Origin: Oscillospiraceae bacterium
GTDB lineage: Bacteria > Bacillota > Clostridia > Oscillospirales > Oscillospiraceae
DNA length: 36,389 bases
Reading direction: 5' to 3'
NCBI GenBank assembly: GCA_017465745.1
Contig: JAFTVM010000082.1
Coordinates: 1 to 36,389 of the forward strand
A program made the position numbers and the translations under genes. Of this stretch, positions 25,680-34,538 are shown in pieces; positions within the stretch are counted from its first letter, which is position 1, and each line of letters opens with the position of its first letter. Under the pieces are notes generated by a model. It ran no database searches. It was not told where the DNA came from and saw only the letters and a program-made list of their open reading frames with translations.

Positions 25680-27608
25680 ATGCCTTTTCTGCCATTATGC
25701 AAACAGGATATGATCGACCGCGGCTGGGAGCAGTGCGATTTCGTCTACGTCATCGGCGACGCCTATGTGGACCATCCCTCCTTCGGCCATGCCATCATCA
25801 GCCGTGTGCTGGAAAGCCACGGCTACACCGTGGGTATCATTTCCCAGCCCAACTGGCGCAATCCCAAATCCATCGATGTCTACGGCCGTCCCCGTCTGGG
25901 CTTCCTGGTGTCCGGCGGCAATATGGACTCCATGGTCAACCACTATTCCGTCACCAAGCATAAGCGCAAGACCGACGCCTTCACCCCCGGCGGCGAGATG
26001 GGCAAGCGGCCCGACTATGCCACCATCGTCTACTGCAACCTGATCCGTCAGACCTACAAGGATGTACCCATCCTCATCGGCGGCATCGAAGCCTCCCTGC
26101 GCCGTCTGGCCCATTACGACTACTGGTCTGAGAGCATGAAGCGCTCCATTCTGCTGGACAGCCAGGCGGATATCCTCATGTACGGCATGGGCGAAAAGTC
26201 CATCGTGGAGCTGGCCGACGCCCTGAACGCTGGTCTGGAGGCCAAGGATATCACCTATATCGACGGCACCGTGTTCAAGTGTGCGGAGCTGGACGAAAGT
26301 CTGCCCACCATCGTCCTGCCGGACTACGAAGAACTGAAAGCCAACAAGCGCAAATATGCAGAGAGCTTCAAGGTACAGTACGGCAACTGCGATCCCTTTA
26401 CCGCCAAGCGGCTGGCAGAGCCTTACGGCAACACTTACGTCGTCCAGAACCCCCCTCAGAAGCCCCTGACCACGGAGGAAATGGACGCCGTCTACGCTCT
26501 GCCCTACGAGCGCACCTGGCACCCCAGCTATGCTAAGGCCGGCGGCGTGCCCGCCATCGAGGAAGTCAAATTCAGCCTGGTCAGCAACCGGGGCTGCTTC
26601 GGCGCCTGCTCCTTCTGCGCCCTGACCTTCCATCAGGGACGCATCATCCAGACCCGCTCCCACGAATCCATCCTGGCGGAAGCGGAGATTATGGTCAAGG
26701 ACAAGGATTTCAAGGGCTACATCCATGACGTAGGCGGTCCCACCGCCAACTTCCGCCATCCCGCCTGCGACAAGCAGATGACCAAAGGCGCCTGCGGCGG
26801 CCGCCAGTGCCTCTTCCCCACCCCCTGCAAGAATATGCGGGCGGATCATTCCGACTACATCGCCCTGCTTCGCAAGCTGCGGAAGATCCCCGGCGTGAAA
26901 AAGGTCTTTGTCCGCAGCGGCATCCGTTTTGACTATTTGCTGGCTGATAAGAAGGACACCTTCTTCAAGGAACTGGTGCAGTTCCACATCTCCGGTCAGC
27001 TGAAAGTCGCCCCTGAGCATGTGTCTGACGCCGTGCTTTCCCGTATGGGCAAGCCCAAGAACGCCGTCTACAACAAGTTTGTGGATAAGTATTTTGCACT
27101 CAACAAGCAGTACGGTATGAACCAGTTCCTGGTTCCCTACCTGATGTCCAGCCATCCCGGCTCCACCATGAAGGAAGCAGTGGAACTGGCCGAGTACATC
27201 CGCGACATGGGCTACAACCCCGAGCAGGTCCAGGACTTCTACCCAACCCCCTCTACCCTGTCCACCGTCATGTATTACACGGGCCTGGATCCCCGGACCA
27301 TGGACCGGGTCTATGTCCCCACCGATCCCCACGAGAAGGCCATGCAGCGGGCCCTGATCCAGTACCGCAATCCCAGGAACTACTATCTGGTGCGGGAGGC
27401 TCTCATTGCCGCCCACCGGGAGGATCTCATCGGCTCCGGCCCCAAGTGCCTGATCCGTGCCATCCCGCCCCGAAAGTCCCCGGTGACCCTGCCGCCTCCC
27501 AAGCTCCCCGGCAAGGGCAAAAAGGTATACGAGCGTCCCGGCTTCAAGCCCAAGCCCCCCAAGGCAGAGATCCGGGGCGGCAAAAAGGGCAAGCCCACTA
27601 AGAAATAA
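25680..27608 (+). CDS. YgiQ family radical SAM protein
   Basis: A 642-residue radical SAM enzyme of the YgiQ/UPF0313 family. N-terminal region binds as in B12-binding-like folds ([35 protein letters not shown]), the 4Fe-4S motif CFGACSFC is at about residues 305-312 within [14 protein letters not shown], then [10 protein letters not shown], a Cys-rich insert ([22 protein letters not shown]), SGIRFDYLL and KVAPEHVSD. The C-terminal 60 residues are Pro/Lys-rich. The reaction is unknown. GGAGG precedes the ATG by 8 nt. It leads a two-gene operon with a Nudix hydrolase 9 nt downstream. Confidence 0.93.
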
Positions 27609-27617
27609 GGTAACGCC

Positions 27618-28091
27618 ATGGGTGGATACATTTTAGACCTGCGCAAGGTCGTTGGCCATCGTCCCCTGATCCAGGTGGGCGCGGGCATCATTGTCGAAGA
27701 CTCCCGGGGCAGGGTTCTGCTCCAATTGCGGGCGGATAACCACTGCTGGGGCTACTGCGGCGGTTCCTGCGAGATCGACGAGCGGGTGGAGGATACTGCC
27801 CGCCGGGAACTCTTCGAAGAAACGGGACTGGTCGCGGAAGAATTGGAGCTTTTCGGCGTCTGGTCGGGTCCGGAGCTTCACTACATTTACCCCAACGGCG
27901 ACGAGGTGTCCAATATCGACATCGTGTTTCTCTGCCGCTCCTTCTCCGGCGAGATCAGGCGGCAGGAGGAGGAAGTGGACGCCCTGCGGTTCTTTTCCGT
28001 CGATGAGATACCCGAGAATCTCTCCCCGCCCATCGTCAGGCCCCTGATGAAATGGGTGGAAACGAAGCGAAAAAGTTCTGCAAATCCGTGA
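27618..28091 (+). CDS. Nudix hydrolase
   Basis: A 157-residue Nudix enzyme expected to hydrolyse nucleoside diphosphate derivatives. The Nudix box is complete: GSCEIDERVEDTARRELFEE then TG (about residues 49-70), with catalytic Glu residues in place. The upstream VGAGIIVEDSRGRVLLQLR is the usual first strand pair. AAGGTAA precedes the ATG. Cotranscribed with ygiQ. Its stop codon TGA is the first part of the dyad upstream of the next gene. Substrate undetermined. Confidence 0.92.
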   Translation: MGGYILDLRKVVGHRPLIQVGAGIIVEDSRGRVLLQLRADNHCWGYCGGSCEIDERVEDTARRELFEETGLVAEELELFGVWSGPELHYIYPNGDEVSNIDIVFLCRSFSGEIRRQEEEVDALRFFSVDEIPENLSPPIVRPLMKWVETKRKSSANP

Positions 28092-28092
28092 T

Positions 28093-28107
28093 GCAACCCA
28101 AAGTTGC
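28093..28107. promoter_or_regulatory. GCAAC-N5-GTTGC dyad, site A
   Basis: GCAAC, 5-nt spacer CCAAA, GTTGC. It lies 49 nt before the -10 box of the HTH gene at 28178. One of four related sites within 5 kb, each near a membrane-anchored HTH gene; candidate operator. Confidence 0.6.
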
Positions 28108-28138
28108 GCGATAAATGGTGGAAGCAACTACTTAATTT

Positions 28139-28147
28139 TGCTATGAT
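28139..28147 (+). promoter_or_regulatory. Extended -10 promoter of the first HTH membrane gene
   Basis: TGC followed by TATGAT (28142-28147), 30 nt before the ATG. The -35 position holds only a weak TGGAAG, typical of an activator-dependent or extended -10 promoter. Confidence 0.5.
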
Positions 28148-28177
28148 CCAGATACAAAACCGAAAGGAGTTCTGATT

Positions 28178-28570
28178 ATGGATATTTCTCAAACTGCCTC
28201 CACAAACGCGTTCCCTGCCATGATCACGATCTGGTTCATCATTCTGATCAACATTGTCCGTATTGCCGCCGTCGTCTATCTGTTTATTCTCCTGGTGCGC
28301 GCCCTCCGGCGTTATCTGGCCACCGGCGAGATCCGCAAGGAAAAGTCCATCGCCCGCAAGTCCCTGGGCGAAGCACTGAAAGAAGAGCGCCTGCGGTGCC
28401 AGATGACTCAGGAATTCGTGGCCGAGCGGCTGGGCATCAGCCGTCAGGCCGTGAGCAAATGGGAGAACGGCACCGCCGACCCCTCCACCTCCAATCTGCT
28501 GGCTCTGGCGAAGCTCTACGGCGTTGATGCCGCCGATTTGCTGCGCAGCGTTGGAAATAACCTCGAATAG
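28178..28570 (+). CDS. Membrane-anchored Xre-type HTH protein 1 (N-terminal TM)
   Basis: A 130-residue protein with an unusual order: one long or two short membrane helices first (residues about 12-42), a basic linker, then an HTH_3 domain (about 66-120) with recognition helix SRQAVSKWE at 89-97. The DNA-binding domain should face the cytoplasm from the membrane. GAAAGGAG precedes the ATG by 8 nt. It stands alone with its own extended -10 promoter and a dyad (site A) upstream. A degenerate copy of the dyad and a terminator follow. The recognition helix is nearly the same as in the other two HTH genes at 30180 and 32530-33000, consistent with shared targets. Target genes unknown. Confidence 0.82.
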   Translation: MDISQTASTNAFPAMITIWFIILINIVRIAAVVYLFILLVRALRRYLATGEIRKEKSIARKSLGEALKEERLRCQMTQEFVAERLGISRQAVSKWENGTADPSTSNLLALAKLYGVDAADLLRSVGNNLE

Positions 28571-28588
28571 TTTCGGTTTTTCCCGGAT

Positions 28589-28603
28589 GCAACCAATAGT
28601 TGA
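28589..28603. promoter_or_regulatory. GCAAC-N5-GTTG dyad, site B (degenerate)
   Basis: GCAAC, CAATA, then GTTGA instead of GTTGC. It lies between the stop of the first HTH gene and that gene's terminator. It overlaps a TTGACA sequence at 28600-28605 without a good -10. Confidence 0.45.
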
Positions 28604-28612
28604 CAGGTTTTG

Positions 28613-28645
28613 TGCCCCGCTGATACAGCGGGGCATTTTTCTTTT
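28613..28645 (+). terminator. Terminator after the first HTH gene
   Basis: A 10-bp stem (28613-28622 with 28626-28635), 3-nt loop ATA, then TTTTTCTTTT. Confidence 0.88.
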
Positions 28646-28692
28646 CCTGTTGCCATAGGATGTTCCATCTATTACTTCACGAGGTGGTACTT

Positions 28693-29301
28693 ATGGAACA
28701 TCCTGAAAATCAGATCACACTGCGGGGCAGCCTGCACACCCTCCCCGCATTTTCCCACGACAACCACGGGCGCCGGTTTTTCCGGTTCACCCTGGAAGTG
28801 CCCCGGCTGTCCGGCGCCGTCGACCTGCTTCCCATCGTAGTGGAGGAGCGCATTCTCAACGCCATGGATCTGAGCGGCGGGGAAATGCTCACGGTCTGCG
28901 GCCAGGTGCGCACCCACAATGTCCGCACCGACACCGCCCGGCATCTGCTGATCTTTGTATTCGCTTCCTCCATTGTATGTGAGGACGGAGAACCCATCAA
29001 CGAATGCATTGTATCCGGAACACTTTGCCGTGAACCCACCTACCGCCGCACACCCCTGGGACGGGAGATCTGCGACGCCATGCTTGCCGTTCCCAGAGCA
29101 TTTCGCCGCTCCGACTATCTTCCCTGTATCCTCTGGGGAAAAACAGCGGTGGAGGTTTCCGGATGCCATGTCCGGGATCAGGTACGGATCTACGGCAGGC
29201 TCCAGAGCCGTGTCTATACCAAGGTCACCGACAACGGCCCCGAAGAGCGGACCGCCTATGAAATCTCCGCCCTGACGGCGGAGATTCTGGAAACCCAATA
29301 A
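28693..29301 (+). CDS. SSB-like protein with two OB folds
   Basis: A 202-residue protein made of two tandem single-strand-binding-type OB domains: N-terminal about residues 6-100 (QITLRGSLHTLPAFS then RRFFRFTLEVPR) and C-terminal about 105-198 (CIVSGTLCREPTYRRTPLGREICDAMLAVPR, then LPCILWGKTAVEVS). The second domain is much closer to SSB; the first is diverged. There is no acidic C-terminal tail of the kind used by housekeeping SSB to recruit partners. Length differs from the usual 110-180. Expected to bind single-stranded DNA; a special repair or competence role is possible. GAGGTGG precedes the ATG by 5 nt. Own promoter not clear. Followed by a palindromic repeat. Confidence 0.75.
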   Translation: MEHPENQITLRGSLHTLPAFSHDNHGRRFFRFTLEVPRLSGAVDLLPIVVEERILNAMDLSGGEMLTVCGQVRTHNVRTDTARHLLIFVFASSIVCEDGEPINECIVSGTLCREPTYRRTPLGREICDAMLAVPRAFRRSDYLPCILWGKTAVEVSGCHVRDQVRIYGRLQSRVYTKVTDNGPEERTAYEISALTAEILETQ

Positions 29302-29306
29302 TTCGA

Positions 29307-29407
29307 TGTCATTGCGAGCCAGTCTGCAGACTGGCGTGGCAATCCCCCACGGTGTTCAAAAATCTGACGGGGATTGCCACGTGGGGTTTGTCCTCCTCGC
29401 AATGACA
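29307..29407. repeat. Palindromic intergenic repeat (TGTCATTGCGAG family)
   Basis: A 101-bp non-coding element with perfect 12-bp terminal inverted repeats (TGTCATTGCGAG at 29307, CTCGCAATGACA ending 29407), a 16-bp perfect palindrome CCAGTCTGCAGACTGG at 29320-29335 and an inner 13-bp inverted repeat CGTGGCAATCCCC/GGGGATTGCCACG. A diverged relative is at 23215-23325. No ORF; looks like a REP/MITE-type mobile repeat. Confidence 0.85.
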
Positions 29408-29419
29408 TTCTTTTTCCGC

Positions 29420-29448
29420 TTTTCATCTGTCGGAATCTGTGCTAAAAT
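29420..29448 (+). promoter_or_regulatory. Promoter of nth
   Basis: TTTTCA at 29420-29425, 17-nt spacer, TAAAAT at 29443-29448 with TGC just before it (extended -10). Directly follows the palindromic repeat. Confidence 0.55.
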
Positions 29449-29474
29449 AAAGAAAAATGCAAAGGAGTTCCGCC

Positions 29475-30101
29475 ATGAAAGAGAAAGTACGCTCCATTAT
29501 CGATATCCTCAAAGCCCGCTATCCCGACGCCCTGTGCGCCCTGCACTACAGCAAGGACTATGAACTGATGATCGCCGTGCGGCTGTCGGCCCAGTGCACC
29601 GACGCCCGGGTGAATATGATCACCCCCGCCCTCTTCGCTGCTTATCCCACTCTGGAAGATATGGCTGCGGCAGATATTACGGATGTGGAAAACTACGTCC
29701 ACTCCTGCGGATTTTACAAACACAAGGCCCGGGATATTGTCCTGGCCTGCCAGATGCTGCTGACGGACTACGACGGCAGGGTGCCCGATACCATGGAAAA
29801 GCTGCTTCGGCTGCCCGGCGTGGGCCGCAAAACTGCCAATCTTCTCCTGGGCGACCTCTACGGCGTTCCCGGCAGTGTGGTCTGCGACACCCACTGCATC
29901 CGTATCTGCGGCAGGCTGGGCCTGTCCGTGGGCAAGGAGCCTGAGAAAGTGGAACAGCAGCTGCGAAAGATTCTCCCGCCGGAGGAAAGCTCCGATTTCT
30001 GCCACCGTATCGTCCTCTTCGGCCGGGACTGCTGCACTGCCCGCAACCCCAAATGCAGCCAGTGCCCTCTGGCCATGCATTGCAGGGAATTTAATCCCTG
30101 A
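29475..30101 (+). CDS. nth: Endonuclease III
   Basis: A 208-residue DNA glycosylase/AP lyase that removes oxidised pyrimidines. The helix-hairpin-helix LLRLPGVGRKTANLLLGD (with catalytic Lys) is near residues 111-128, the catalytic Asp is in VVCDTHCIR, and the Fe-S cluster motif C-x6-C-x2-C-x5-C closes the protein (CTARNPKCSQCPLAMHC). Normal length. AAAGGAG lies 7 nt before the ATG; the open frame just upstream lacks support. Second base-excision enzyme in this window besides nfo. Its stop codon TGA begins the dyad upstream of the next HTH gene. Confidence 0.95.
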   Translation: MKEKVRSIIDILKARYPDALCALHYSKDYELMIAVRLSAQCTDARVNMITPALFAAYPTLEDMAAADITDVENYVHSCGFYKHKARDIVLACQMLLTDYDGRVPDTMEKLLRLPGVGRKTANLLLGDLYGVPGSVVCDTHCIRICGRLGLSVGKEPEKVEQQLRKILPPEESSDFCHRIVLFGRDCCTARNPKCSQCPLAMHCREFNP

Positions 30102-30102
30102 T

Positions 30103-30117
30103 GCAACCGCAGGTTGC
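30103..30117. promoter_or_regulatory. GCAAC-N5-GTTGC dyad, site C
   Basis: GCAAC, CGCAG, GTTGC, immediately after the nth stop and 48 nt before the -10 box of the second HTH gene. Candidate operator of the same family as sites A, B and D. Confidence 0.6.
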
Positions 30118-30128
30118 CGGATGGTTGG

Positions 30129-30156
30129 TAGACAATCCGCCCCTTTTTGCTATCAT
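30129..30156 (+). promoter_or_regulatory. Promoter of the second HTH membrane gene
   Basis: TAGACA at 30129-30134, 16-nt spacer, TATCAT at 30151-30156 preceded by TGC (extended -10). Confidence 0.55.
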
Positions 30157-30179
30157 AAAGGTGCAAAGGAGGTTGTGAT

Positions 30180-30968
30180 ATGACACTTGGAGATAGAATC
30201 AAAGAATGCCGCCTGAAGGCGAAGCTGTCCCAGGAGAAGGTTGCTGAGCTTGTCGGCGTCAGCCGCCAGGCGGTAACCAAATGGGAGTCAGGCCTTTCCG
30301 CTCCCAACACGGACAACCTGTTCAAGCTGGCGGAAGTCCTGGGCACCACTGTAGATTTTCTGATCACAGCAGAAAACGATACCCGTTCTGTCGCCGAACA
30401 GGTCTACCAGATGATCAAGGATGAAGCGGCAGGAAAGGAAGCCGAAATCAGGCACCAACGGCTTCTGAATTTCTATGCCGTTCTCGGTGTTCTGGCCGGG
30501 TATACCGTGATTTTCCTCACCGGAAAGCTGCTTTTTACCGAAAGCGGGGATTATACTGTTTTGGGTTGGCTGACAAACACGGATATGAGGCCGGGGGCCT
30601 ACCTGTTCGGCTGGCTTCTGAGCAGCCGTATGTTCCATTACGCCACCATACTCTCCATGTTCTGCGGTCTTGCCGGATTCCGGCGTGTCGCCTTCACTAC
30701 CCTGGGCGCTTTCACACTGGGGCTGCCCCTGGGCGAGTATCTGGGTGCCATCCCCGCCCTGGTTCCGCAGGGCTACCACTACGGCTGGGCCATCTGGGGA
30801 CTGCTGTTTATCGGCTCCATCTTCCTGGGGATCTGGCTGCAGCGTTTTCCGGCGGCGGAATTGCATTGGCATTCCAAAAAGCTGCGGCGCTGGTGCATCG
30901 CTGCCGGGCTTTACGCCGCGGCATCCATCGCCTTCGTCCTGTTGAACATCCCTCCTGCCTATTATTAA
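30180..30968 (+). CDS. Membrane-anchored Xre-type HTH protein 2 (five TM)
   Basis: A 262-residue protein: HTH_3 domain at residues 5-60 with recognition helix SRQAVTKWE (28-36), a charged helical linker (65-95), then about five membrane helices (roughly 96-118, 140-165, 170-195, 203-221, 238-257). No enzymatic motif in the membrane part. AAAGGAGG precedes the ATG. It probably senses a membrane or envelope state and controls transcription directly. The gene has its own promoter and dyad (site C). Downstream, a 13-bp hairpin separates it from a flippase gene, which may be cotranscribed. Confidence 0.85.
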   Translation: MTLGDRIKECRLKAKLSQEKVAELVGVSRQAVTKWESGLSAPNTDNLFKLAEVLGTTVDFLITAENDTRSVAEQVYQMIKDEAAGKEAEIRHQRLLNFYAVLGVLAGYTVIFLTGKLLFTESGDYTVLGWLTNTDMRPGAYLFGWLLSSRMFHYATILSMFCGLAGFRRVAFTTLGAFTLGLPLGEYLGAIPALVPQGYHYGWAIWGLLFIGSIFLGIWLQRFPAAELHWHSKKLRRWCIAAGLYAAASIAFVLLNIPPAYY

Positions 30969-30975
30969 CATATCG

Positions 30976-31010
30976 CCCCCCTTGTCCCCATACACTTGGG
31001 ACAAGGGGGG
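30976..31010 (+). promoter_or_regulatory. Hairpin burying the flippase ribosome site
   Basis: Perfect 13-bp stem (30976-30988 with 30998-31010) around a 9-nt loop. The right arm ends in AAGGGGGG, the only good ribosome site before the flippase gene. No U tract follows, so it is not a standard terminator. Confidence 0.65.
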
Positions 31011-31016
31011 ATCGCT

Positions 31017-32516
31017 TTGTCCGGGAAGATGAATATATTCTACAGCGCTCTGATGCTCACCGGGGTGAATCTGCTGCTGCGGCTGGTGGGGACATCCTTT
31101 CAGGTCTACCTGTCCGGACGGATCGGCGCGGCGGGCATCGGGCTGCTGCAGCTGACCATGAGTGTGGGGAGCCTTGCCATGGTGGCCGGAATGGGCGGGA
31201 TCCGCACAGCCACCATGTATCTGACCGCCGAGGAACTGGGCCGTGGCAGGAAAAACAGCGTCACCTGGGTCCTGTCGGGCTGCTGCCTGTACAGCATTCT
31301 GTTCAGCGGAACAGTAGCCTTCGGGCTGTATACCTTCGCCCCCTGGCTGGCGGAAAACTGGATCGGGGATGTCCAGACCATCCCCTCCCTGCGGCTTTTC
31401 GCTGCATTTCTGCCGGTGGTCTGCCTGTGCGGGGTGATGAGCGGGTATTTCACCGCCGCGGAGCGGATCGGAACCCTGGCGGCGGTGGAGGTGGGTGAAC
31501 AGCTGGCTTCCATGGTGATGACGATGGGAGCACTGGTACTGTGGGCCGGAAATGATCCCGGACGGGCCTGTCTTTCCGTGGTACTCGGGAGCGCACTGGG
31601 CGCCTGTCTGACACTTTGCTGTCTTGGATTGCTGCGGCTGGGGGAACGCCCAGAAACCGGCCCCCGGATCCCGGTGCGGCAGAGACTGGCGGAAACGGCG
31701 CTGCCTCTGGCGCTGGCGGACGATCTGCGCACCGGCATCACCACAGCCGAAAACCTGATGGTTCCCAAACGGCTTGCTCTGTGCACCGCTGTGGAGAATC
31801 CCCTGGCCGCCTTCGGGCTGGTCAGCGGCATGGTGTTTCCTGTCATCATGTTCCCGGCAGCGATCCTGTTCGGCCTTAACGAGCTGCTGATCCCGGAGCT
31901 GGCCCGGTGCAGCGCCGCCGGACAGACCAGGCGGATCCGGTATCTGGTGCGGCGCAGTCTTCGGGTAACACTGGTGTACGGACTGACTTTCTGCGGACTG
32001 CTGTATCTGCTGGCGGATGAACTGTGCATGGGGCTCTACGGCAATTGGGACGCCGCTAAAAGCATCCGGCTCTACGGTCTTCTGGTGCCCATGCTCTACT
32101 GCGATGCGGTTACCGACGCCATGACCAAAGGCCTGGGGCAGCAGAAAGTGTGCGTCCGCTACAACATCATCACCTCTGCCATGGATGTAGCGTTTCTGTA
32201 TCTGCTGCTGCCAAATTACGGGATGAAAGGCTATTTTTTCAGCTTTCTGATCACCCATCTGATCAATTTCCTGCTGAGTCTGCGGCGGCTTCTGAAGATC
32301 ACCGGCCTGCGGATCCCCTTCCATACCCCGGTACTGGCCACGTCCGGGTGTCTTTTCGCCGTATTTGCGGCGGGCAGGCTCCCCTCACCCATCCTCCGCT
32401 CCGGCGCCTATCTTGCCCTGCTGGGCAGCATCCTCTTTCTCTGCCGTGCCTGGCGCCGGGAGGATCTGCACTGGCTGATGGGCTTGATCAAACGAAAAGA
32501 CCTCACCAAACGGTGA
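31017..32516 (+). CDS. SpoVB/MurJ-like oligosaccharide flippase
   Basis: A 499-residue polytopic protein of the MOP superfamily, closest by eye to stage V sporulation protein B and related lipid-linked sugar flippases. Features: N-terminal FYSALMLTGVNLLLRLVGTSFQ, SGRIGAAGIGLLQLTMS (typical of SpoVB), about fourteen hydrophobic helices, AAILFGLNELLIPELAR in the middle. It probably moves lipid-linked wall precursors or polysaccharide units across the membrane. Start: TTG at 31017 has AAGGGGGG 6 nt upstream; the first ATG, 31029, has only a weak GGGAAG. The ribosome site lies in a 13-bp hairpin. The stop codon is inside the stem of the terminator. It follows a membrane HTH gene by 48 nt. Confidence 0.85.
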   Translation: MSGKMNIFYSALMLTGVNLLLRLVGTSFQVYLSGRIGAAGIGLLQLTMSVGSLAMVAGMGGIRTATMYLTAEELGRGRKNSVTWVLSGCCLYSILFSGTVAFGLYTFAPWLAENWIGDVQTIPSLRLFAAFLPVVCLCGVMSGYFTAAERIGTLAAVEVGEQLASMVMTMGALVLWAGNDPGRACLSVVLGSALGACLTLCCLGLLRLGERPETGPRIPVRQRLAETALPLALADDLRTGITTAENLMVPKRLALCTAVENPLAAFGLVSGMVFPVIMFPAAILFGLNELLIPELARCSAAGQTRRIRYLVRRSLRVTLVYGLTFCGLLYLLADELCMGLYGNWDAAKSIRLYGLLVPMLYCDAVTDAMTKGLGQQKVCVRYNIITSAMDVAFLYLLLPNYGMKGYFFSFLITHLINFLLSLRRLLKITGLRIPFHTPVLATSGCLFAVFAAGRLPSPILRSGAYLALLGSILFLCRAWRREDLHWLMGLIKRKDLTKR

Positions 32517-32530
32517 GGTCTTCCCTTTTT
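32497..32530. terminator. Bidirectional terminator overlapping the flippase stop
   Basis: Perfect 11-bp stem (32497-32507 with 32512-32522), AAAC loop, then CCCTTTTT on the plus strand and TTTTCG on the minus strand. The flippase stop codon lies within the right arm. Confidence 0.85.
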
Positions 32531-33000
32531 CATTTCTTCCAGGCTTTGCGGATAAAATACACGATCACAAAAACGACTCCCAAATCGAATCCGAAATTGA
32601 TGCTCTGTAATATCAAGGTAACCGGCGCAATCGACACCAACGCACCGCCGAACTTCCATCTCACAAAAGTGAGAACCATGAAGAATACCACCACAGCAAG
32701 CCAGGCCACCGCCCATGCGATGATCCATTTCCGCGGATTCGGTTTTGACTTCTCTTCTGCGGCGCGGGAATCTTCCACAGCAGTGGGATCCTCTGCTGTT
32801 ACCTGTTCCCCAGTCAGCAGCGCATCCACCGTGATGCCGAAGATCCGGCTCATCGCCGTCAGGCAGTCCACCTCCGGCTTCGCCGTCCCCATCTCCCAGC
32901 GGGACACCGCTTGCCGGGACACCCCCAGCAGGTCTGCCAGCTCCTGCTGGGTCATATTCTTCTGCTTGCGAAGCTGATAAATGCGCTCGTGTAGCTCCAT
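32530..33000 (-). CDS. Membrane-anchored Xre-type HTH protein 3
   Basis: A 156-residue protein: HTH_3 domain (residues 3-60) with recognition helix SRQAVSRWE (28-36), an acidic linker (65-85), then two or three membrane helices (about 91-113, 117-135, 138-151). Start at 33000 is chosen because AAAGGGGGC lies 8 nt upstream; the ATG at 33021 is next to the -10 box and would not be in the message. Convergent with the flippase gene through a shared terminator. It shares the recognition helix, dyad and extended -10 promoter with the two plus-strand HTH genes, so the three look like one regulatory family inside 5 kb. Confidence 0.85.
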   Translation of the reverse strand: MELHERIYQLRKQKNMTQQELADLLGVSRQAVSRWEMGTAKPEVDCLTAMSRIFGITVDALLTGEQVTAEDPTAVEDSRAAEEKSKPNPRKWIIAWAVAWLAVVVFFMVLTFVRWKFGGALVSIAPVTLILQSINFGFDLGVVFVIVYFIRKAWKK

Positions 33001-33023
33001 GAAAAAGCCCCCTTTCTGCATCT

Positions 33024-33052
33024 ATCCTAGCAGAAAGGGGGCAAAAAGGCAA
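33024..33052 (-). promoter_or_regulatory. Promoter of the third HTH membrane gene
   Basis: Minus-strand TTGCCT (33052 to 33047), 17-nt spacer, TAGGAT (33029 to 33024) preceded by TGC. A GCAAGC/GCTTGC dyad (33050-33063) abuts the -35 and, read with the following TTTTT, might also act as a weak terminator for pepD. Confidence 0.55.
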
Positions 33053-33073
33053 GCACGCTTGCTTTACATTTGC

Positions 33074-33088
33074 GCAACAGGCTGTTGC
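33074..33088. promoter_or_regulatory. GCAAC-N5-GTTGC dyad, site D
   Basis: GCAAC, AGGCT, GTTGC, extended to 6-bp arms by an outer C-G pair. It lies 59 nt upstream of the -10 of the third HTH gene, one helical turn further out than sites A and C. Confidence 0.6.
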
Positions 33089-33095
33089 GTTTAAT

Positions 33096-34538
33096 TTACA
33101 GCGCCTTCAGCACAGCCAGCAGGAAGTTCCAGGTGCGCTCCACGGATGCGATGCCCAGCTTCTCGCGGCTGGTGTGGATATCGTGCATCTCGGGGCCGAT
33201 GGAAACGCAGTCCAGGCCGGGAAGCTTCTCGCCCAGCAGGCCGCACTCCAGACCTGCGTGGATGGCCACCACCTCGGGAGCCTTGCCGAACATGTGGGTA
33301 TAGGTCTTGACCATGACGTCCCGGAGGTTGGAATCGGCCCTGTACTCCCAGGCAGGGTACTCGCCCATCTGGGTATAGGTGGCGTCGTGGAAGGCGGCGA
33401 TCTCCTTGAGCTTATTCAGCAGATCCTCCTTCTCCTGATTGACGGAACTGCGGACGGAGAAGGTCAGGTGCAGGGCGTCGCCCAGCTTGGCAATGCCCAG
33501 ATTCAGACTGGTCTGGACCAGACCGGGGATGTCCGCGCTCATGGCCTGGACGCCGTTGGGTACAGCGCACAGCAGAGAAATGACCTTGGCAGTGGCCTCG
33601 GTGGTCAGAGCGTTGCCGCCCAGTGCATCCACATCAAAGGCCTGAACGACGGCTTCAGGCTCGTCATACTTCTCCCGGATTTCTGCCTGGAGCTCGGCGG
33701 CAATGGTGTTGATCCGCTCCAGATTGATGCCCATGGCGACCATATTGGCGGTACAGGAACGGGTAATGGCATTATCCTTGGAGCCGCCTGCCAGACTGGT
33801 CAGGCACAGAGGCATCAGTGCCTGGACACGGCTCATAAATTCGCCCATGATCTTGTTGGCGTTAGCCCGGTTCTTGTGGATCTCCACGCCGGAGTGGCCG
33901 CCCTGAAGGCCGTCCACGCTCAGACGGATGCAGGGACCATACACAGCCCGGCGCTCACCGGCCATGGAAATGGTGGCGGTAGCGCCGCCGGCACACGAAA
34001 CGGTGAAGACGCCCTCTTCCTCAGAGTCGATGTTGATCAGGGTACGGCCCTTCAGATCCTTCAGGTCGATGGCAGCAGCGCCCAGCATGCCGATCTCCTC
34101 ATCCACGGTGATGATGACTTCCAGCGGGGGATGGGCGATGGTCTTGTCCTCCATCAGGGCCAGGGCGTAGGCAATGGCAATGCCGTCGTCGCCGCCCAGA
34201 GTGGTACCCTTTGCAAAAACGTAAGCGCCGTCATGGGTCACGTCCAGGCCCTGGGTGTTCATATCGATGGGGCAGTCGGCATCCTTCTCGCAGACCATAT
34301 CCATATGGCCCTGGATGATGACAGGGGCATGATCCTCATAACCGCAGGTGCCGTCGCAGAAGATGATGACATTATTGGCTTCATCCTGAATATATCGCAG
34401 GCCATGCTCCACGGCATACTTCACCAGATAGTCGCTGATGGCTTTGGTGTTGCGGGAACCGTGGGGGATGGCGCAGATTTCCTCAAAATATCGAAATACG
34501 GAGGCAGGCTGCAGACCCGCCAGTTTCAGTTCGTTCAT
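33096..34538 (-). CDS. pepD: Aminoacyl-histidine dipeptidase (PepD-type)
   Basis: A 480-residue M20 metallopeptidase of the PepD (Xaa-His dipeptidase) group, normal in length. Zinc-site motifs: IIQGHMDMVCEK (His 78 region), GTTLGGDDGIA (bridging Asp), TVDEEIGMLGA (catalytic Glu pair), NIDSEEEG and the C-terminal HAGLECGLL. The lid/dimerisation domain with GLQGGHSGVEIHKNRANA is in place. It works in the cytoplasm on dipeptides from imported peptides or turnover. GGAGAATCTTT separates the GGAAGGAG ribosome site from the ATG. Monocistronic, TGGACT-17-TAGAAT promoter. Confidence 0.95.
   Translation of the reverse strand: MNELKLAGLQPASVFRYFEEICAIPHGSRNTKAISDYLVKYAVEHGLRYIQDEANNVIIFCDGTCGYEDHAPVIIQGHMDMVCEKDADCPIDMNTQGLDVTHDGAYVFAKGTTLGGDDGIAIAYALALMEDKTIAHPPLEVIITVDEEIGMLGAAAIDLKDLKGRTLINIDSEEEGVFTVSCAGGATATISMAGERRAVYGPCIRLSVDGLQGGHSGVEIHKNRANANKIMGEFMSRVQALMPLCLTSLAGGSKDNAITRSCTANMVAMGINLERINTIAAELQAEIREKYDEPEAVVQAFDVDALGGNALTTEATAKVISLLCAVPNGVQAMSADIPGLVQTSLNLGIAKLGDALHLTFSVRSSVNQEKEDLLNKLKEIAAFHDATYTQMGEYPAWEYRADSNLRDVMVKTYTHMFGKAPEVVAIHAGLECGLLGEKLPGLDCVSIGPEMHDIHTSREKLGIASVERTWNFLLAVLKAL

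Follow-up and report, generated by a model that had tools for sequence, protein, structure and literature searches.

A stretch of 36,389 nucleotides of contig JAFTVM010000082.1 (hereafter the window), from the 2.73-Mb draft genome of an Oscillospiraceae bacterium (G000 in our locus labels), carries three genes for membrane-anchored regulators of the XRE type, and each gene is preceded by the same dyad, GCAAC-N5-GTTGC. Judged from sequence, these regulators very probably control their own genes. We consider it likely that they do so by phased autoregulation through this dyad, probably activating, as membrane one-component regulators of the BcrR kind.

The dyad occurs exactly at 28093-28107, 30103-30117, and 33074-33088, and a pattern scan of the window turned up no other exact copy. 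This agrees with a preliminary description of the same DNA, which had reported these three sites as the sole exact copies and had placed their starts 49, 48, and 59 nt from the -10 hexamers of the first, second, and third genes. The gaps between dyad and -10 are 34, 33, and 44 bp, so that the third dyad does lie about one helical turn further out, as had been claimed. Each of the three proteins combines a DNA-binding domain with membrane segments (called from hydropathy here and throughout). The HTH_3 domain (PF01381) scored 64.8, 67.5, and 58.2 bits against a curated cutoff of 23, and the recognition helices of these helix-turn-helix (HTH) domains are nearly identical, as previously noted (SRQAVSKWE, SRQAVTKWE, and SRQAVSRWE). 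A copy with one mismatch, GCAACCAATAGTTGA at 28589-28603, had been overlooked; with it, the window holds four matches at one mismatch or fewer, a number equaled by 6 of 100 shuffles. The genome as a whole contained five exact dyads versus three for a reversed control pattern. Because this total is not unusual and lies near the control, the evidence is in the placement of the dyads. Three of the five fall within 5 kb (chance, ∼3e-5 by hand estimate), and four of the five stand 53 to 81 nt upstream of an open reading frame (ORF) for a membrane HTH protein. Besides the window dyads, these four include the one at C100:29005, before a gene with the helix SRQSVSKWE. The remaining dyad is intragenic.

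We extended the survey to 60 genomes (our own and 59 relatives), where exact dyads numbered 105 versus 51 for the reversed control. For 75 of the 105 copies we looked for an HTH ORF within 400 nt: 31 dyads were upstream of one, 34 were inside another ORF of at least 150 amino acids (aa), and 10 were neither. A dyad that is common and unlinked to HTH genes, the outcome named beforehand as refuting a shared operator, is not what this distribution describes. We also selected genes by their helix, blind to the upstream DNA, taking the best 80 of at least 591 stretches of public genomes that fit SRQ[AS]V[ST][KR]WE and resembled an HTH domain. In 58 of these 80 genes, CAAC-N5-GTTG was present in the 350 nt that precede the domain, versus a mean of 0.35 and a maximum of 3 in 20 rounds of shuffling; with other spacings the counts were 2 (N4) and 0 (N6), and the everted form gave 0. 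At least one membrane segment was found in 73 of the 80 proteins; among the 58 whose genes carry a dyad, 54 had one. The dyad half distal to the gene was more constant than the other half. Dyad-bearing loci spanned Clostridia, Bacilli, Erysipelotrichia, and one Coriobacteriaceae metagenome-assembled genome (taxa as titled in the records). These results strongly support the idea that membrane HTH regulators share an operator.

The outermost base of the dyad varied with the residue at position 2 of the recognition helix. Where this residue was Arg (helix-selected genes), the gene-distal outer base was G in 55 of 58 sites. A sample of 30 genes with other residues (Pro, 17; Ala, 10; Phe, 2; Asp, 1) was retrieved entirely with a single TAQAVSKWE query domain, and these genes are therefore close kin. 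Of the 28 sites before these Ala-, Pro-, or Phe-type helices, 23 had T as the outer base, 4 had A, and 1 had G (gene-level Fisher test against Arg, 1e-13). A search that began from the site, TCAACC-N3-GGTTGA in the same 60 genomes, returned 11 sites, 8 of them before HTH genes; the helices behind these eight were TAQ (five), SMQ, TDR, and STA, and none was SRQ. This search adds SMQ, TDR, and STA helices to those of the single-query sample. Asn helices had a dyad in 9 of 29 cases, with C as the outer base in 7 of the 9; since three of these seven genes had prompted the idea, the fresh evidence is 4 of 6. Across 161 dyad genes, a mixture of helix-selected and operator-selected loci (the unbiased comparison is the one given above, of the 80 helix-selected genes with the Ala, Pro, and Phe helices), Arg went with G in 101 of 105 genes, and residues other than Arg and Asn went with T in 35 of 47.

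When a related domain was aligned with the 434 repressor, helix residue 2 fell on Gln28, and the recognition helix therefore probably reads the outer operator base. The 434 protein with Gln28 changed to Ala reportedly prefers T at position 1, a preference that a natural pairing of Ala with T would match. A helix with Gln at this position would be predicted to go with ACAAC; a DNA pattern for such a helix (QQA-x-S-KWE) had no match when 394 genomes from the order were searched, although Arg, Asn, Ala, Pro, and Phe all occur there. The non-Arg (T class) genes were less often membrane anchored, with a membrane segment in 9 of 30. Genes with Ala or Pro helices often had two dyads of the TCAAC or ACAAC type, 20 to 23 bp or about two helical turns apart (L213, L217, L219, L222, L223, L224, and L234). 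A third candidate site class, GAAACC-N3-GGTTTC with TDKAVSKWE helices, was prompted by one gene of our own genome and rejected: 1 of 17 sites examined (25 tabulated) was before an HTH gene.

The distance between dyad and promoter was periodic. In the mixed R/O set, a -10 element scored above the cut at 86 of 89 sites (the operator-selected set includes one false HTH pairing, L098), and the 86 gaps included 23 bp in 4 cases, 34 bp in 17, 44 to 45 bp in 46, and 55 to 56 bp in 5. Of the 56 gaps before helix-selected genes, 49 deviated by no more than 1 bp from 34, 44.5, or 55, and 7 were out of register. The phasing vector had a length of 0.83 in this set (mean, 0.16; max, 0.55 in 300 shuffles), at a period of 10.75 that was picked after the gaps had been inspected. 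The distance from the dyad to the start of the HTH domain had no period (vector, 0.08; random, 0.12; 49 sites). As the gaps to the -10 are periodic and the distances to the gene are not, the pattern points to helical phasing of the kind expected for an activator that touches RNA polymerase. A site upstream of the -35 and in helical phase with the promoter is also the arrangement of class I and II activators, here in genes that are not independent of each other. With the -10 set at -12 to -7, the dyad centers lie near -43, -54, -64.5, and -75. The -35 boxes averaged 2.8 of 6 consensus matches at 17-bp spacing, a value that has no control promoter set for comparison.

We propose that an XRE dimer would bind the dyad upstream of its own promoter, with one recognition helix for each half-site and the Arg at the second helix position reading the outer G. 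The dyad center would lie near -54 in the first two genes and near -64 in the third, one helical turn apart and hence on the same face of the DNA. From there, and perhaps under the influence of a membrane signal, the bound protein would aid RNA polymerase at an extended -10 promoter, an autoregulation in which activation is likelier than repression. Some promoters also carry weaker half-sites near the -35 that keep to this ∼10.5-bp register; these might hold a cooperative second dimer or might limit expression at a high dose, much as a phage repressor controls its own promoter. Given their nearly identical helices, the regulators of this genome may also bind each other's sites. What the sequences themselves show is the association of dyad and gene, that of residue and base, and the phasing; the binding, its sign, the membrane signal, and the cross-talk are inferred.

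Several observations weigh against phased self-activation. No dyad was found before 22 of the 80 helix-selected genes or before three SRQ-type genes of our own genome (two SRQTINAIE and one SRQTVSKWE). A FastTree phylogeny of the 161 genes, built with the recognition helix masked, contained about four changes between Arg and non-Arg and a single contrast on supported branches; with so few independent switches, an apparent code of residue and base could come from common ancestry. Moreover, 53 of the 56 phased genes fell in one single-linkage cluster, so the gaps are not independent samples, and the phasing argument rests on there being several distinct gap classes, all three of which this one cluster holds. 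Half-sites recurred in the two main gap classes, which comprise 21 and 45 promoters: TTGG at -39 in 13 and 16 of them, respectively, CAAC at -28 in 4 and 13, and CCAA at about -49 in 11 of the 45. Those at -39 and -28 stand beside the -35 in part of the promoters and would also suit repression. By eye, the dyads of L244 and L083 lie beyond the -10, and the sign of regulation may for this reason differ between subfamilies. Finally, the second regulator's own -35 is good (5/6).

The last of these points bear on the most serious rival, autorepression, which we regard as rather unlikely. Under autorepression, a regulator bound at the upstream dyad (O1) would recruit further dimers to the half-sites adjoining the -35, TTGG at -39 and CAAC at -28, and silence the promoter until a membrane signal arrived. 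The dyads of L244 and L083 are placed as a repressor's might be, helical phasing could equally serve an array of repressors, and the promoter of the second regulator looks strong on its own (10 of 12 matches). The most constant dyad is nevertheless the distant one, centered at -43 to -75 and not over the -35 or the -10. A second rival holds that one unrelated master regulator binds the dyad before many XRE genes and that the XRE proteins themselves do not. The association of site and gene is by itself silent on which protein binds, but the outer base varies with the helix of the downstream gene, and both site classes coexist in one genome (L006, L009, L012, and L016 versus L017 and L019), which makes a master regulator very improbable. 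We rejected RNA hairpins (terminators or leader structures) as the least credible explanation of all: the window dyads start a few bases past genes ending at 28091, 30101, and 33096, two tested dyads fold weakly (-5.7 and -8.3 kcal/mol), and there is one terminator-like match at 33072, yet Rfam had no match in 27000-34500, the two stems barely beat shuffled sequence (12 and 14 of 200 shuffles equaled them), the dyads are upstream of the promoter, the outer bases are noncomplementary in 50 of the 161 sites, and the conservation is one of letters and not of pairing.

Returning to phased self-activation, we tentatively suggest a wider form of it, which is possible but which we hold with distinctly less confidence than the proposal for the window itself. 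A single grammar, X-CAAC-N5-GTTG-X', might serve a very large, mostly membrane-anchored, and little-studied XRE group of the Bacillota, in which helix residue 2 would set X (Arg for G, Asn for C, and Ala, Pro, Phe, or Tyr for T), the site would occupy one of several helically phased positions before the regulator's own promoter, and the genes would activate themselves. If so, each such gene would act as a membrane switch that sustains itself, and a single genome could contain several channels, orthogonal or cross-talking, that differ in one amino acid and one base. The site, the position rule, and the residue-base rule can be read from sequence and are testable, so that predictions of regulons and of self-control would become possible for many regulators that have not been studied. 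An old question would become testable as well: how a membrane-anchored protein locates a promoter and turns it on.

The DNA-binding domain resembles that of the phage repressors 434 and P22, proteins with the HTH_3 fold that act on arrays of operators and control the promoters of their own genes. The domain of the second regulator matched the P22 (E value, about 4e-9) and 434 (E value, 1.5e-4) repressors, and it is an HTH_3 domain by sequence, with helix residue 2 aligned to 434 Gln28 as described above. The 434 half-site is ACAA and the full operator is ACAA-N6-TTGT; the window dyads differ in being GCAA-N7-TTGC, and the window regulators are membrane anchored and chromosomal. The lambda repressor, bound at about -42, activates the promoter of its own gene, and sites of the window type are phased near -43, -54, -64, and -75, a further difference from 434 and P22. 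If the code holds, the single-residue specificity known from a phage repressor would extend to natural chromosomal regulators.

In architecture, the closest comparison is BcrR of Enterococcus faecalis. Its operator has two inverted repeats with N7 between 4-base half-sites, a spacing that, compared by description, equals that of the window dyads. Like BcrR, the window proteins would be membrane one-component regulators, to judge from an HTH domain and membrane segments encoded in the same gene, and they may work in the BcrR manner with a 434-type domain. BcrR is a bacitracin-sensing protein. The available part of one report describes it as a one-component transmembrane regulator that lacks an obvious extracellular domain and acts as an activator of its target promoter, and it gives the target as a transporter operon and bcrR as a separate transcription unit (PMC3968067). 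The recurrent target here, in contrast, would be the regulator's own promoter. BcrR has a four-helix membrane anchor and loses DNA binding without it, as cited in the accessible text of PMC13384398. An adjacent bacitracin ABC transporter operon of the BcrR type was absent at our locus, where the neighbors are a Nudix hydrolase, a gene similar to those for single-stranded DNA-binding proteins (SSB-like), nth, a SpoVB/MATE-type flippase, and a dipeptidase. A match on an E. faecalis plasmid was considered as a candidate for BcrR and set aside (helix SRTAVSNWE; no transporter recognized alongside).

Among XRE proteins studied elsewhere, the Caulobacter paralogues RtrA, RtrB, and relatives have overlapping sites with similar motifs and one strong and one weak half-site, according to the available portion of PMC10688885. 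The unequal half-sites recall the more constant gene-distal half found here; that portion concerns other bacteria and describes neither a membrane anchor nor a residue-base comparison. Membrane-bound transcription factors are widespread, and a survey by Demey et al. (2023; PMC10269533), in the part available, found HTH domains with a predicted transmembrane region to be so and lists BcrR in its Table 1. In its main-text wording as available, the survey describes no operator, and the terms XRE, operator, and binding site are absent. The literature searched, with the main BcrR papers outside that search, contained no description of the dyad, the residue rule, or the phasing. The dyad spellings and the string SRQAVSKWE were likewise not found in it, GCAAC and GTTGC did not occur among the related papers listed, and we found no operator described for this membrane XRE group.

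The three regulators did not recur as a trio. We searched 61 genomes of the genus (our own included; drafts, in which gaps are possible) and did not find the clustering of the three genes in the 60 others. A near-full-length match to the first protein was present in 8 of the 61, our own included. Among those eight, the second protein occurred in our own genome and in one other (G018), where the two genes lie on separate contigs (C31 and C23). The best-scoring match to the third protein outside our own genome was 38% identical across 125 residues. The dyad and its spacing are mostly retained before homologues of the other two regulators. Before seven congeneric orthologues of the first regulator, the dyad was exact in three, had one mismatch in two, and had two mismatches in two; before five more distant homologues, it was exact in one, had two mismatches in three, and was absent in one. 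For the second regulator, the dyad was exact before all three congeneric homologues and, among four more distant ones, exact before two, with one mismatch before one and two mismatches before one. The preliminary description had also proposed that the three regulators cross-regulate. Their nearly identical helices make this plausible, and the three perhaps act on each other's genes.

The first regulator (28178-28570, plus strand; 130 aa) has two N-terminal membrane segments followed by the XRE HTH domain. Its dyad, GCAACCCAAAGTTGC (28093-28107, plus strand), is an exact pattern match that ends 34 bp before the extended -10, TGCTATGAT (28139-28147, plus strand), and a putative -35, TGGAAG (28119-28124, plus strand; 3/6 consensus), was read from the sequence 17 bp before the -10. 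The motif ATAGTTGGTGGA-N-GCAACC recurs, variably, behind the dyad of first-regulator orthologues. A terminator-like hairpin 3' of the gene (28612-28636, plus strand) would make the first regulator monocistronic.

In the second regulator (30180-30968, plus strand; 262 aa), the XRE HTH domain is N terminal and membrane segments follow. The dyad GCAACCGCAGGTTGC (30103-30117, plus strand; exact) lies 33 bp before the extended -10, TGCTATCAT (30148-30156, plus strand), and the -35 is TAGACA (30129-30134, plus strand; spacer, 16 bp). Between this gene and the flippase is a strong hairpin (30976-31010; -29.8 kcal/mol) without a long T-run, similar to one at the corresponding position in G018 (L066), and read-through from the second regulator into the flippase is possible on this account. 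The flippase, nth, and the SSB-like gene had been suggested as further targets of the circuit. In our genome and in G018 alike, the flippase does follow the second regulator, but it was not seen behind five other homologues within the stretch available; the evidence gives no support to a control over nth or the SSB-like gene.

The third regulator (32530-33000, minus strand; 156 aa) again has an XRE HTH domain followed by membrane segments. Its start most likely is the ATG at 33000, as had been assumed, because the -10 (33024-33029) is too close for the longer ORF from 33021. The extended -10 is TGCTAGGAT (33024-33032, minus strand), and the exact dyad, GCAACAGCCTGTTGC (33074-33088, minus strand), lies 44 bp before the -10. 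A second, weaker dyad, GCAAGCGTGCTTGC (33049-33062, minus strand), was read from the sequence over the -35 region.

The one-mismatch dyad GCAACCAATAGTTGA (28589-28603, plus strand) begins 18 nt beyond the stop codon of the first regulator, with no in-register -10 by eye. This 15-mer has four identical copies in the genome, each followed by CA (28589-28603; C34:9147, C40:1233, and C50:17755, which are L243, L244, and L246). One copy precedes an HTH gene whose product has a long linker and ends in a membrane helix; the others are at or just beyond gene ends, one of them 795 nt upstream of a gene that reads like dnaX and one after a gene that reads like spoIIIAH. The repeat might be a site of chromosome-membrane tethering. 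Elsewhere in the window, the intergenic region at 29306-29410 resembles a palindromic repeat (CATTGCGAG ... CGCAATGAC) and is perhaps a dispersed element.

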